From Alphaproteobacteria bacterium (lineage in GTDB: Bacteria; Pseudomonadota; Alphaproteobacteria; DSM-16000; Inquilinaceae): a stretch of 64,000 bases of DNA. A model generated the notes under the pieces. The model did no database searches and had not been told where the DNA came from. It saw only the letters and a program-made list of their open reading frames with translations. Below, piece after piece: positions 7,856 through 45,037 of this stretch (within the stretch, counting starts at the first letter, position 1; each line of letters opens with the position of its first letter). The position numbers were made by a program, and so were the translations under genes. Location of the stretch: assembly GCA_028277405.1 (NCBI GenBank), contig JANQGH010000093.1, forward strand, positions 1 through 64,000. Direction: 5' to 3'.

Positions 7856-9502
7856 GTGGCAGAGGTAATCGAGGCGGAAAAGACGTCGGACGCCCCATCG
7901 GCGGCGACGCATGCGGGCTACCGGCTGACCATCGAGCCGTCCGGCCAGCGTATCCAGGCGGTGTTCAATGGCGAGACGGTGGCCGACAGCAGCCGGGTCC
8001 TGGTCATGCACGAGACCCGCCTGCGGCCGGTCTACTATTTCCCGCGCGACGATGTGCGGATGGATTTGCTGACGCGCACGGACCATCGCACCTACTGCCC
8101 GTTCAAGGGCAACGCCTCCTACTGGTCGCTGACCGTTGGCGACAAGACGGCCGAAAACGCGGTGTGGAGTTATGAGAATCCGTTCGACGAGGCGGAACTC
8201 GTCGGCAACTATGTCGCGTTCTATGCCCACCAGATCGACACCTGGCTCGTCGACGGCATCGAGACCGACCTGACCGCGCGGGAGATCGAGCCGGCGTCGG
8301 ACAATCCCTGGGTGCCATGGCTGGTCAAGGACGCCTGGAAGGCGGGGTCGACGAAGGAACTGGTGGCCCATCTGGCCGAGGCCCTGGTCGCCAACGGCCT
8401 GAACATCCATCGCCTGCGCCTGATGATCCAGACCCTGAACCCGCAACTCTTCGCGCTCGCCTATACCTGGCAGCAGGACGCCGACGAGGTGACGGAGTTT
8501 CAGGCCACCCATGCCGGCATCCAAAGCGATGCCTTCCGCGACAGCCCGCTGGCCGTGATCCTGAATGGCGAGGGCGGCGTCCGCCGGCGGCTGGACGTGC
8601 CCAACCCCCGCCTCGACTATCCGATCCTGCACGATCTGGTGGAGCAGGGGGCGACCGACTATGTCGCCATGCCGATGCGCTTTTCCGACGGCCAGATCAA
8701 CATCATCACCCTGGTCTCGCGCGAGCCGGGCGGCTTTTCGACCGAGTGTCTGGGCCACCTGCACGAGATCCTGCCGAACCTCAGCCGCCAGGTGGAGGCG
8801 CACGCCCAGCGCGTCTCCTCCCTCTCGCTGTTGCAGACCTATCTCGGCGGCCACACCGGCGAGCGGGTGATCAACGGCCTGGTCAAGCGCGGCGACGGCG
8901 AGAACATCCACGCCGTCATCATGTTCAGCGACCTGCGCGGCTCCACCATCCTGGCCGAGACCCTGTCGCGCGACGATTACCTGGCCGCCCTGAACCAGTA
9001 TTTCGAGGCCATGGCCGGCGCCGTCATCGACCATGGCGGCGAGGTCCTGAAATTCATCGGCGACGCCGTCCTAGCCATCTTCCCGATCGACGAGGACGCC
9101 GCCGAGACCGATGGCCATTCGCCCGCCTGCGCCAAGGCGCTGGAGGCGGTCTACGACGCCCAGCAGCGGATCGAGGCGGTGAACAAGGAACGGGTGGAGC
9201 GGGGCGAGCAAAAGCTGGCCGTCGGCATCGCGCTGCATCGCGGCGACCTGACCTACGGCAATGTCGGCAGCGAACGGCGCCTGGATTTCACCGTCATCGG
9301 CTCGGCCGTGAACGAGGCCTCGCGCATCGAGGATATGAGCAAGCTCCTGAAATCCCCGATCGTCATCTCCTCGGCCTTCGCCCGCAGCGTCCCCGGCGAC
9401 CTGATCTCGCTCGGCTTCCACGAACTGCGCGGCTTCCGCGACAAGCAGGAAATCTTCACCCTGCCACCGGCGCCGGCCCCAACCGACGACGCGTCGACTT
9501 AG
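7856..9502 (+). CDS. DUF427 domain fused to class III adenylate/guanylate cyclase
   Basis: The open frame extends further upstream, but GTG at 7856 has a GGAG at 7844-7847 and opens directly before the first recognisable domain (548 residues). Residues about 20-112 are a DUF427 domain (RVLVMHETRLRPVYYFPRDDV, TYCPFKGNASYW, WSYENPF). A middle region typical of alphaproteobacterial cyclases follows, then the class III catalytic domain. Its metal-binding Asp residues lie in MFSDLRGST (Asp359) and KFIGDAVLAIFP (Asp403), with GNVGSERRLDFTVIGSAVNEASRIE near the end. It should make cAMP (or cGMP) from the nucleotide triphosphate in the cytoplasm. DUF427 may be its sensory part. Confidence 0.88.
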   Translation: MAEVIEAEKTSDAPSAATHAGYRLTIEPSGQRIQAVFNGETVADSSRVLVMHETRLRPVYYFPRDDVRMDLLTRTDHRTYCPFKGNASYWSLTVGDKTAENAVWSYENPFDEAELVGNYVAFYAHQIDTWLVDGIETDLTAREIEPASDNPWVPWLVKDAWKAGSTKELVAHLAEALVANGLNIHRLRLMIQTLNPQLFALAYTWQQDADEVTEFQATHAGIQSDAFRDSPLAVILNGEGGVRRRLDVPNPRLDYPILHDLVEQGATDYVAMPMRFSDGQINIITLVSREPGGFSTECLGHLHEILPNLSRQVEAHAQRVSSLSLLQTYLGGHTGERVINGLVKRGDGENIHAVIMFSDLRGSTILAETLSRDDYLAALNQYFEAMAGAVIDHGGEVLKFIGDAVLAIFPIDEDAAETDGHSPACAKALEAVYDAQQRIEAVNKERVERGEQKLAVGIALHRGDLTYGNVGSERRLDFTVIGSAVNEASRIEDMSKLLKSPIVISSAFARSVPGDLISLGFHELRGFRDKQEIFTLPPAPAPTDDAST

Positions 9503-9618
9503 CTGCCGGCACCCGGCCGGCGCGGCGGGTCGGCTTGCCCGTCGGCGCGCGGCTGTTTGACCCGCATCAAGCCGCCGTAATGCCGGGTCGGCTGCAGACG
9601 GCGGATGACTGCACGGTG

Positions 9619-9924
9619 ATACCAACTTGCGATGATAATGACCCCTGTGATGGCGGCCAAATCGGTTCACGGCAAGGCGCCCAAACAAGCTTCAATGGGC
9701 GCAGCGCGATGCTTCAGCATCGGGCAAGCGGCGCCCAAGAGCTTTTGGGGCAGCCGTGGAGCGATTTGGCCCCACCGAAGGCCGCGTTGTCTTGTTCGCC
9801 GGCTGCCCAGGAAGCTCTCTTGGGGCGCGCCGCTTGTGGTATCTCCACACCACGGCGCAACACGCGCCTGACCAGCGATCAAGACAACGCGGTCACATGA
9901 GTCATTATCATCGCAAGTTGGTAT
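9619..9924. mobile_element. MITE-like element, 306 bp, with 24-bp perfect terminal inverted repeats
   Basis: The left end (9619-9642, beginning ATACCAACTTGCGATG) is the exact reverse complement of the right end (9901-9924, ending CATCGCAAGTTGGTAT). Similarity continues inward imperfectly for about 12 more bases. Inside are further dyads: 9725-9755 pairs with about 9801-9835, and a 13-bp perfect inverted pair lies at 9782-9794 and 9880-9892. There is no transposase gene, so it would be mobilised in trans. The TA within both termini fits, but does not prove, a TA target duplication as in IS630/mariner elements. It ends just before the ribosome binding site of the next gene. Confidence 0.85.
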
Positions 9925-9940
9925 AAGGCGGAGACGGCCG

Positions 9941-10324
9941 GTGTCCGACCCCCATCCCAACGTGGCGCTGATCGAGCGGCTCGACATCCACGACATCGCC
10001 GCGTCCAAGGACGTCTTTGCCGAGGACGCGGTCTTTCGCTACTTCAATCCGCTGCTGCCCGACCTCCAGGGCGACTATGTCGGCCTCACCGGCATTCGGG
10101 ATTTCTTTCAAAAGATCGGCGCCCTCAGCGAAGGCTCGTTCCGGATCGAGCCGGTCTCCGCAGAGGCGGTCGGCAACGAACTGGTCGTCGTCCACACCCG
10201 CAACAGCCTGACGTTCGACAACCAACCGATCACGATGGACGTGGTCGTGATCTGGCGCATCGTAAACGGCCGCATCACCGAGGTCTGGGACATTCCGTCG
10301 GTTTTTACAGTGATGCAGGGGTGA
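9941..10324 (+). CDS. SnoaL/NTF2-like protein
   Basis: This 127-residue protein has the NTF2-like pattern: an N-terminal helix, then FAEDAVFRYFNPLLPDLQGDYVGLTGIRDFFQKIG, followed by four beta strands ending in VVVIWRIVNGRITEVWDIPS. Such cone-fold domains act as small isomerases, hydrolases or ligand-binding proteins; no catalytic residue can be assigned. GTG at 9941 is preceded by a GGCGGAG stretch at suitable distance. The MITE-like element ends 16 bases upstream, so the gene's promoter may be supplied or altered by that insertion. Confidence 0.75.
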   Translation: MSDPHPNVALIERLDIHDIAASKDVFAEDAVFRYFNPLLPDLQGDYVGLTGIRDFFQKIGALSEGSFRIEPVSAEAVGNELVVVHTRNSLTFDNQPITMDVVVIWRIVNGRITEVWDIPSVFTVMQG

Positions 10325-10583: not shown

Positions 10584-11780
10584 CTATTCATCACGTGCGA
10601 ACGGGATAACTGAGCCGACGTCATCGTCAGACCGTGCCGGGCGTCTCAGCGTCGGAAGCCTCAATACGTCAGCTGACTGTGAGCTCATGTATCCTCGGGG
10701 CAGTCCGCACAGCGATTCCACATCTGACCCGTAGAGCCTGAAGTCACTGAGAAGGTCTTCTCGGCTTCGCACCTTTTCATCAACCAACAAGCGCACTGAT
10801 CGGTTCAAGAGGCGCGGATACTCTGGTTCGAGCACATCGTCCAGAGGCTCGGTTCGTCGCCAACCTCGTGCGCTGTAGTATTTCCAGAGTCTTCGCTGAT
10901 ACTCCTCGCTCAGCATATCGAGTTTTGCACAGCGCATGATCATCGCGCCGATAGACGACTTCCATCGCTCCTTGAGCGCGACAAAAGCATTTAGCGAGGG
11001 AGACCAAATCTCTGCGGAGAAGCTCTCGGCAGGCATTAGAAACGCCCCAGCAAAATCGAAGGCCTGGCGCTCTATCTCCTTGAATTCCACACTATTGGTC
11101 AGAGCATTGGCCTTGAGGCCCTGGTGCAGCACTAGGTGCCCGAGCTCGTGCGCAGCGTCCATGCGCGATCGCGCACAAGCGTCCTTGTCGCTCGCTATTA
11201 GCACATAGGGGCGATTGTCTGCCGCCGACCAGTTGGAAAGCCCGTCCATTTTGACGGTCCCGGTTTCCTCCTTGACTACGACAATTCCTGCATTCTCAAG
11301 GACCAAAAGAACATCGGTAATCGGGCCCGTTCCGAGCCCCCATAAGCTTCGGCACTCAATGGCCATCCGCTCGATGTCTTCGTCTCCGATCTGTCGGTGA
11401 TCCGCTACGTCCAGCTGCGGGACGCTAACGTCGGGAAGGTCCACCCATTCCTGGACGCCGAGTGCAACATCCTGCGCCCACCGAAGTCTGGCCCGTGTGC
11501 GTTTGCGTACGGACTGTGTGGTGCTAGCCATAGAACGGAAGAACATCGGCGCTGGGCCGTGAGCCGGCTGTGGCTTTAGGAAGTACGCGACCGGCACGTT
11601 GAGTGCCCGCGCAAGTGCATCCAGCGCATCTGGTTCAGGGGACTGTCCTCCGGCCTCCCAACGGGAGATGCTCGAACTCGTGCGGTTGATCAGCTCAGCG
11701 AGCGACACTTGTGTAAGGCCTCGGGAATCCCGAGCCTCCACCAGTCGCTCGGATGTGAACCCTGGTGTGCCACTGCGCAT
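10584..11780 (-). CDS. XRE-type HTH fused to ImmA/IrrE zinc metallopeptidase
   Basis: This 398-residue protein has an N-terminal Cro/C1 helix-turn-helix (RLVEARDSRGLTQVSLAELI, SSSISRWEAGGQSPEPDALD; about residues 10-65). A DUF955/ImmA-IrrE peptidase domain follows, with the zinc motif HELGH at 211-215. Such proteins cleave a partner repressor or act as regulator-antitoxins in phage, ICE and stress systems. It lies 29 bases downstream of an unknown gene on the same strand, likely co-transcribed. Codon usage is less GC-biased than in the neighbours, suggesting horizontal acquisition. Confidence 0.88.
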   Translation of the reverse strand: MRSGTPGFTSERLVEARDSRGLTQVSLAELINRTSSSISRWEAGGQSPEPDALDALARALNVPVAYFLKPQPAHGPAPMFFRSMASTTQSVRKRTRARLRWAQDVALGVQEWVDLPDVSVPQLDVADHRQIGDEDIERMAIECRSLWGLGTGPITDVLLVLENAGIVVVKEETGTVKMDGLSNWSAADNRPYVLIASDKDACARSRMDAAHELGHLVLHQGLKANALTNSVEFKEIERQAFDFAGAFLMPAESFSAEIWSPSLNAFVALKERWKSSIGAMIMRCAKLDMLSEEYQRRLWKYYSARGWRRTEPLDDVLEPEYPRLLNRSVRLLVDEKVRSREDLLSDFRLYGSDVESLCGLPRGYMSSQSADVLRLPTLRRPARSDDDVGSVIPFARDE

Positions 11781-44093: not shown

Positions 44094-45037
44094 GCGTGCT
44101 GGCCATCGAAGACGCGCACCGGCAATTCGCCAGCGGCGGCGGGATTGTTACGGCCTTGGACGGCGTCAGTCTGGCCCTTGATCGCGGCGAAATAGTCGGT
44201 CTTGTGGGCGAGTCCGGCTGCGGCAAGAGCACGCTGGCACGGATTGCGGCCGGGCTCGATCGACCGGATGACGGCAAGGCGACCTTTGGCAGCCGGCCGA
44301 TGGCGCCCGCCGGCCGACAGATCGACGCCGATACCCGCCGGCGGGTGCAACTGGTGTTTCAAGACCCGCTGGCCTCGTTCAATCCGCGCCGTACTGTCGG
44401 GCGTTCCATCGCCCTGCCTTTGCGCTTGAACCGAATGCTGTCTGGCGGTCAAGAGCGCTCGGTCGTTGCCGAGCTGATGGACCAGGTCGGCCTCGATCCC
44501 GCGCTGATGGACCGCAAGCCCCATCAGCTTTCGGGCGGCCAGTTGCAGCGCGCGGCGATCGCGCGGGCCCTCGGTCTGAACCCGGACGTGCTGATCTGCG
44601 ACGAGCCGGTCGCTTCTTTGGACGTGTCGGTGCGCGCGCAGATCCTGAACCTGCTGCTGGCTCTCTGCCGCGACCGCAACATCGGCATCCTGTTCGTGTC
44701 TCACGATCTGGGCGTGGTGCGGCGCATCGCCGACCGGGTGGTGGTGATGTATCTCGGGCGCGTCGTCGAGCAGGGGTCGAACGAGGCGGTGTGGTCGGCG
44801 CCGCGCCACCCCTATACACGGGCGCTGGCGGCGTCGGTCCCGACCGGAGCGGCCTCCTGGCGGTTGGACCAGGGGCGGGTGCGGCTGGCAGGCGAACCGC
44901 CAAGCCCGTTCGATGTGCCGACGGGCTGCCGGTTTCATCCGCGCTGTCCGATCGCCATCGATCGGTGCCGGCAAGACGATCCGGTGCTGAGACCGATCAG
45001 CCAGGACATCGACGCGGCCTGTCACCTGGCGGAGTAG
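44090..45037 (+). CDS. Opp/Dpp-type ABC ATPase (DppF type)
   Basis: This 315-residue ATPase has Walker A GESGCGKST, Q-loop VFQDPLASFNPR, signature LSGGQLQRA, Walker B VLICDEPVASLD and H-loop VSHD. The C-terminal oligopeptide domain contains GCRFHPRCPIAIDRC. It is the fifth transporter gene, and its stop lies only seven bases before the pyridoxine oxidase-like gene, so transport and oxidation are one transcription unit. Confidence 0.92.
   Translation: MSVLAIEDAHRQFASGGGIVTALDGVSLALDRGEIVGLVGESGCGKSTLARIAAGLDRPDDGKATFGSRPMAPAGRQIDADTRRRVQLVFQDPLASFNPRRTVGRSIALPLRLNRMLSGGQERSVVAELMDQVGLDPALMDRKPHQLSGGQLQRAAIARALGLNPDVLICDEPVASLDVSVRAQILNLLLALCRDRNIGILFVSHDLGVVRRIADRVVVMYLGRVVEQGSNEAVWSAPRHPYTRALAASVPTGAASWRLDQGRVRLAGEPPSPFDVPTGCRFHPRCPIAIDRCRQDDPVLRPISQDIDAACHLAE

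Follow-up and report, generated by a model that had tools for sequence, protein, structure and literature searches.

Non-coding repeat families of the sort considered here measure about 100-200 bp in bacteria according to the relevant part of a review, and most of the families in its table are confined to one genus or a few (PMC2229807). Among those outlined in such sources, the repeat unit of pneumococcus (RUP) has IS630-Spn1 as its proposed mover (PMC3049150, PMC2229807), and for the cyanobacterial MITE Nezha this role has been proposed for ISNpu3-like elements (PMC3049150). In Alphaproteobacteria, the sections devoted to them describe the CIR repeats of Caulobacter, Brucella and other members of the class (PMC2229807) and the palindromic repeats RIME of Rhizobium and Bru-RS of Brucella (PMC2573895, PMC2267715). 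A literature search that included PMC10969869 and PMC3733652, and that had most subscription journals outside its scope, returned no description of the element family reported below.

The locus lies in a 64,000-nucleotide stretch of DNA, analysed as a whole and hereafter called the window. It comprises the following features.

9620-9923, no strand: the window copy of the element, read as an IS630-type MITE, TACC...GGTA, 304 bp
9617-9619: left target triplet TGA, of TNA type, differing from the right triplet
9924-9926: right target triplet TAA
9619-9655, plus strand: left terminal inverted repeat (TIR), 5' side of the outer stem, perfect over 24 bp and at 89% over 37 bp
9888-9924, minus strand: right TIR, 3' side of the outer stem, from the repeat finder
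9655-9771: inner arm A, a hairpin, from dyads and DNA fold, helices 3 to 6 of the covariation analysis
9704-9729, plus strand: arm A tip, GCGCGATGC-n-GCATCGGGCAAGC, the search motif for relatives
9782-9892: inner arm B, a hairpin resembling inverted arm A, covarying helices 8 to 10
9680-9699: extra palindromic insert, arm A 5' side, missing in short copies, edges approximate
9734-9749: extra palindromic insert, arm A 3' side, CCCAAGAGCTTTTGGG, edges approximate
9806-9825: extra palindromic insert in arm B, present too in copies L002 and L003, edges approximate
9941-10324, plus strand: SnoaL_2/NTF2-like gene, the downstream neighbour outside the element, 17 bp after it

The first-pass annotation had described a foldable, MITE-like element of 306 bp at 9619-9924 with 24-bp perfect inverted ends, nested dyads and no transposase. 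The ends are indeed exact reverse complements over 24 bp (9619-9642 against 9901-9924), with the repeat finder extending them to 37-nt arms at 89% identity, and three inner dyads are found (9655-9673/9753-9771, 9782-9802/9872-9892 and 9738-9756/9800-9818). Four open reading frames of at least 80 aa overlap the element (8317-9900 on the plus strand; 9071-9688, 9667-10008 and 9908-10225 on the minus strand), and all of them run into its flanks, in agreement with an element that encodes no gene. The element is thus real, and only its span has to be trimmed, as the first and last base (9619 A and 9924 T) are part of the target triplets, leaving 304 bp for the element proper. Upstream, a reading frame with DUF427 and guanylate-cyclase domains ends at 9502; downstream, the SnoaL_2 gene starts with GTG at 9941. 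The element contains one promoter-like match, directed away from the SnoaL/NTF2-like gene, and one terminator-like match facing it (chance expectation 0.4), and at this locus it is probably a folded leader or spacer before that gene and no more. Further downstream, the translation of 10584-11780 (minus strand) gives the impression of a helix-turn-helix protein with a metallopeptidase part (ImmA/IrrE-like).

A search of the window's whole genome (G000) returned 34 matches, many of them single ends. Eleven are full-length copies of 263-306 bp in the alignment (L001-L011, the window copy included), two are truncated by contig ends (L012, L013), and the remnants comprise C42, cut down to ~55 bp by an internal deletion, solitary ends (C66, C2), a core remnant (C84) and additional single end matches (C28, C66, C68). 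The sequence is hence not the one-off intergenic region that the annotation had kept in view as the alternative. One of the other copies shares 94-95% identity with the window copy, the rest 75-84%. Two palindromic inserts in arm A of the window copy and a third in arm B follow a similar scheme, CCC..AGCT..GGG, and occupy the places of short internal-loop stretches; L002 shares all of them, L003 just the one in arm B. A match to the palindromic insert with 3 mismatches is located at window position 44520. Four copies in a MAG titled Rhodospirillales (G023; L222, L228, L231, L232) carry a nearly identical GC-rich palindromic insert of ~41 bp in the arm A tip loop, i.e. palindromes within the tip of a palindrome.

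In the window's bacterial family, 10 of 17 genomes match, its own included, mostly via the arm A tip. Relatives further afield were sought with this tip, written as GCGCGATGC-N(2-6)-GCATCGGGCAAGC, and in the genome contig collection the pattern occurs in at least 115 stretches. Among the matches listed, the titles name Inquilinus, Tistlia, Thalassospira, Rhizobium, Xaviernesmea, Neorhizobium, Hoeflea and Roseibium, further Pelagibius, Anderseniella, Kiloniellales, Rhodospirillales, Hyphomicrobiales and other Alphaproteobacteria, the remainder being only Proteobacteria or Pseudomonadota plus one Cyanobacteria and one Anaerolineae title. The latter two are L138 (RFIF01000265.1, Cyanobacteria) and L155 (JANQQD010000267.1, Anaerolineae), and the title or binning of L155 is probably wrong. 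One viral contig was matched, too. Exact tips are present in 8 of 385 genomes drawn evenly from the class, the window's genome among them, and in 1 of 398 in a draw from the phylum with many genomes of the same class, that one again being the window's; an exact 33-base subterminal piece had no match in the genome contig collection. Of the 117 tip occurrences among the matches listed, 77 lie inside inverted repeats scoring at least 13, which mostly span 259-278 bp; the remaining 40, a good many of which are close to the end of a contig, do not enter later counts. Elements of similar size and three-stem architecture are found in Inquilinus, Rhizobium, Neorhizobium, Hoeflea, Thalassospira, Kiloniellales and others. 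A plasmid search with an Inquilinus-group element gave no match; with the Neorhizobium element, one Agrobacterium plasmid was matched in two places. One of these, L271 (NZ_CP045856.1, Agrobacterium sp. MA01 plasmid), is 80% identical to the Neorhizobium element and is intergenic by the annotation, upstream of a helix-turn-helix regulator. Spread of the family by plasmids is conceivable.

Three end types are found on the same core, TACCAA..TTGGTA with TNA, GAGC..GCTC with TA, and GCCCGC..GCGGGC with TA. The 77 cross-genome elements among the matches listed divide into 22 of the first, 35 of the second and 10 of the third type, with 10 in no class, counts that are not independent since several elements come from one genome, and assignment to the second or third class demanded TA on at least one side. 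All copies in G000 (11 of 11) and in G023/G024 (20 of 20) have the first type, while 13 of the 20 Inquilinus-group copies have the third and 7 fall in no class.

The flanks record how these elements were inserted. Identical triplets flank 8 of the 11 first-type copies in G000, 15 of 20 in G023/G024 and 12 of 22 across genomes, and TA is present on both sides of 32 of the 45 cross-genome elements of classes 2 and 3 and of 7 of the 13 assigned Inquilinus-group copies, TA on at least one side being preselected in these two sets. The context is often C-TNA-G or C-TA-G, giving a duplication of 3 or 2 bp. Flanks that do not fit occur in each sample, as expected for old insertions, and the window copy, with its unequal TGA and TAA, belongs here, so that the target duplication the annotation had asked after is seen in the family and not in this copy. 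A comparable division applies to the empty site. For an Inquilinus-group copy in G001 (L070), the same locus lacks the element in G002, G003, G005 and G006, where TAGCGCAG is uninterrupted, preceded by C (CTAG) in three genomes and by G in G003; the flanks are directly adjacent in G002, G003 and G005, and the duplication around the G001 copy now reads TA/TG. Among the matches listed, G004 gave none to these flanks. For the window copy, no empty site was found in the 17 family genomes, where the matches listed cover the cyclase-side flank only. By codon usage, 1 of 11 insertions in G000 and 10 of 55 across genomes (only elements flanked by at least 700 bp on both sides) fall within one coding frame, as against 61% (151/246) and 57% (709/1240) of random positions. 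Open-frame lengths at the insertion sites are uninformative as a gene test in GC-rich DNA, and codon-usage scoring was used instead.

The element also folds strongly. Folded as DNA, the window element reaches -110.6 kcal/mol (shuffles: mean -59.5, sd 4.9; z -10.4; 0 of 100 as low), which bears out the foldability noted at first pass. The consensus of 43 elements (42 cross-genome elements and the shorter sister copy L006) consists of an outer stem and two arms, with changes on both sides in 59 of 73 pairs. In this alignment, 88.1% of structure cells are paired against 33-43% in slid versions, and cells with changes on both sides number 796, compared to 167-253 after sliding, with 0 of 500 shuffles reaching the observed values; as the structure comes from these very sequences, the slid control is biased in its favour, and the tip (helix 6) is invariant because it served as search key. 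The covariation shows that the three-stem fold has been kept from Rhizobium to Inquilinus. Arm B aligned to the reverse complement of arm A beats letter shuffles (z 4.5 to 7.6), and the relative orientation of the arms is not certain because each is near-palindromic.

The end stem and the arms differ in how they change. Private changes were scored in three copy sets of 11, 17 and 18 sequences, after removal of L219, L231, L233, L242 and L258, whose alignment showed a deletion, a rearrangement or the wrong orientation. With mixed cases set aside (4 in the ends, 9 in the arms), 14 changes in the end stem are mirrored and 16 one-sided, against 4 and 58 in the arms (Fisher p 1.5e-5, neighbouring changes not being independent). 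Counted per copy, the ends show 12 mirrored and 15 one-sided, the arms 4 and 34 (p 0.003, from few events). The G023/G024 copies and most Inquilinus-group copies were chosen by a TIR pattern at both ends, a choice biased towards similar ends. The G000 set was retrieved by similarity over the whole element, without end-based selection, and by itself has 6 mirrored and 5 one-sided changes in the ends, as against 0 mirrored and 20 one-sided in the arms. Left and right ends are 0.92-0.98 identical over 24 nt in the MITEs, as compared to 0.63-0.67 in four IS630 elements, where MITEs in no class were omitted and the cross-genome set and the IS630 elements were picked by inverted repeat. A transposase requirement alone would not mirror bases that vary from copy to copy, and general palindrome correction would be expected in the arms too. 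The counts would be compatible with copying or repair linked to the folded state of the ends.

Template switching corrects quasi-palindromes, and the symmetry of arms and ends might be nothing but a functionless mutational by-product of this process. Mirrored changes do occur, and palindromic inserts pile up in the arms, both of which speak for this explanation. However, correction, if general, would be expected to be at least equal in the shorter inner hairpins, and the counts for arms and ends given above show the opposite. We regard the by-product explanation as doubtful, with the reservation that it could still operate at a step linked to transposition.

Selection for an RNA, i.e. a structured non-coding RNA or riboswitch-like leader that is repeated by chance and whose fold is kept for RNA function, would likewise produce strong covariation, and the fold is also very stable as RNA: L006 forms the outer stem and two arms with z -13.7 against 200 shuffles. 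Wobble mismatches argue against it. With pairs predicted from both strands, column types of GT and AC number 5 and 6 in G000, 5 and 9 in G023/G024, 20 and 12 in the Inquilinus set, which alone leans to GT, and 42 and 41 across genomes, in total 72 and 68, so that one-sided changes show no preference for G-T over A-C and selection on RNA is without support. A plus-strand bias (86 GT and 32 AC cells) obtained from a single-strand structure was discarded, being gone with pairs common to both strands. In Rfam searches of four loci, no match to the element reached the gathering score, the sole hit at that level being a tRNA outside it; below threshold, L064 matched microRNA precursor families at 36.6 of 100 and 34.2 of 55 bits. 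That the element is mobile is shown, moreover, by target duplications, by empty sites and by the presence of copies at unrelated loci, and we consider an RNA function very unlikely.

A transposase with matching ends was sought in nine genomes, seven of which have IS630-family (DDE_3) matches; G006 and G018, both carrying copies, have none. The DDE_3/NF033545 proteins sit in elements with TACC.. or GAGC.. ends, and the NCBIfam IS630 transposase model is the best match for all five pieces tested, with those from L287 and L282 under its cut-off, as expected for fragments. G000 holds an IS630 element of 1053 bp with TCTAGAGC ends (L272), G024 one of 1095 bp with GGCTAGAGC ends (L273), and G022 one of 1159 bp with broken frames, TAA-TACCAA...TTGGTA-TAA (L287), i.e. 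with TAA on both sides, like the TNA of the window type. A decayed 3' fragment in G000 (L282), ending in ..CAACCTGGTA-TAAG, has a window-type end; its other end was looked for and not found. The window TIR agrees with five IS630 ends at 18-21 of 28 bases (L282 20/28; four G022 ends 18-21), against a mean of 9.9 over 328 TACC-starting 28-mers, of which seven reach 18; these seven we take to be the two window-copy ends and the five IS ends themselves, left in the background. The two ends of L275 (G017) reach only 13/28. In G022, the Xaviernesmea MITE end agrees with IS ends of its own genome at 15-19. For the second type, the L278 end (G001) scores 19-20/28 against three MITE ends of other genomes, with 1-2 of 1128 background words equally good, and 16 against a fourth, and L272 and L273 reach only 11-16/28 against four class-2 MITE ends. 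Third-type (GCCCGC) ends were not encountered on any IS630 element; the IS630 of G001 has CTAGAGC ends. Judged from these end comparisons, the assignment to IS630 has good support for the window type and fair support for the second, while for the third, the Inquilinus type to which the empty sites belong, it would be conjectural. The partner that the annotation had suggested looking for is hence represented by IS630-family elements with similar ends, and no intact one with exactly the window's TIR was found. As the only IS630-family element seen in G000 with a window-type end is the 3' fragment, the window family is probably stranded now.

The G001 IS630 with CTAGAGC ends occurs at nine places (L278, L280, L284, L286, L288, L290, L292-L294), each no more than 20 bases from the edge of a contig, which points to recent multiplication of this insertion sequence. 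Pairs of MITE ends 0.7-2 kb apart were absent among the matches listed for G000, G008, G023, G006 and G001, and one inward pair 4.0 kb apart was found in G023 (C338).

An IS5-family transposase, which we take to be of IS427/IS1031 type, might instead move the element or its third end type. IS5 elements of the same genomes insert at C-TA-G or C-TAA-G as well, and G006, rich in third-type copies and without a DDE_3 match, has four near-identical copies of one IS5-family element at C-TAA-G sites. The shared CTNAG target first drew attention to this family, which was set aside because its ends (GAGTCCGTTTGG.., GGCTCAGGACTC..) do not look like those of the MITEs, in contrast to the match between IS630 ends and the window type; we give the IS5 explanation little credence. 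An IS5 fragment beside a MITE end in Hoeflea (L207), considered as a partner, was rejected, having an IS5-like end on its other side. The two similar inverted hairpin arms also recall a REPIN/BIME-like pair moved by a RAYT (Y1 HUH) transposase, a scarcely credible origin for an element with long TIRs, a 2-3 bp target duplication and ends matching DDE transposons.

Based on the copies within the genome, the target duplications, the empty sites of a relative and the IS630-like ends, the MITE reading of the first pass is supported: the element is repeated, mostly intergenic and inserted at TNA or TA, with a relative whose sites are empty in other genomes. We propose, at a probability of roughly three in four for the reading as a whole, that it is an IS630-type MITE whose fold is constrained at the level of DNA and whose ends are re-copied from each other. 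An IS630-family (Tc1/mariner-like DDE) transposase, supplied in trans, would bind the element ends, excise the element and reinsert it at TA or TNA. The constraint would act on DNA, e.g. on a folded single strand or a cruciform that joins both ends, and each end may serve as the template for the other at about the time of transposition or repair, which would account for mirrored changes being frequent in the ends and rare in the arms. More tentatively, and with the odds against it, a single ancient folded core could have crossed the Alphaproteobacteria with ends of different IS630 subgroups (TACC/TNA, GAGC/TA and the third type), the ends being copied mutually during movement as a folded single strand. 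If true, this would provide an element without coding capacity with a self-correcting way to keep its ends matched through drift or a switch of transposase.

Of the described systems, RUP is the clear functional parallel. By the accounts in parts of PMC3049150 and PMC2229807, it is likewise non-coding and repeated, with a TA insertion site, IS630-like TIRs and a tight fold in which the TIRs are paired. However, RUP is a 107-bp element of S. pneumoniae with TIRs of 9 bp according to the latter source's entry, whereas the present family measures about 260-305 bp, has two internal arms and ends paired over 24-37 bp, and extends over several alphaproteobacterial groups with three end types on one fold; it is not RUP itself. 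Nezha, compared by its description in a section of PMC3049150, resembles it as a MITE with TIRs matching an IS of the host. CIR, as characterised in the respective part of PMC2229807, shares the alphaproteobacterial intergenic location and the two hairpin arms with a linker, but by that description is ~110 bp long with unpaired ends and a conserved GANTC, unlike the 304-bp element with paired ends, in whose family GANTC is not enriched (present in 23 of 43 elements, at 26 sites in all, where shuffling gives a mean of 36). RIME and Bru-RS are also intergenic repeats of Alphaproteobacteria in the excerpted descriptions (PMC2573895, PMC2267715), Bru-RS being given there as 103-105 bp (PMC2267715). 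CIR, RIME and Bru-RS differ from the present family in the features compared, and a relationship with RIME or Bru-RS is conceivable.

In conclusion, the element is of a kind already known, an IS630-type MITE like the pneumococcal RUP, and what is new is a variant with alphaproteobacterial spread and a conserved fold. A fold conserved despite sequence change points to a DNA shape that matters, and a larger family across several groups, in which one covarying three-stem fold is combined with three or more end types, represents a natural collection from which to learn what a transposon without genes must retain. The mirrored ends of the MITEs, as opposed to the unmirrored ends of the IS630 elements measured, further raise the testable question of whether a folded strand copies one end from the other during transposition or repair.
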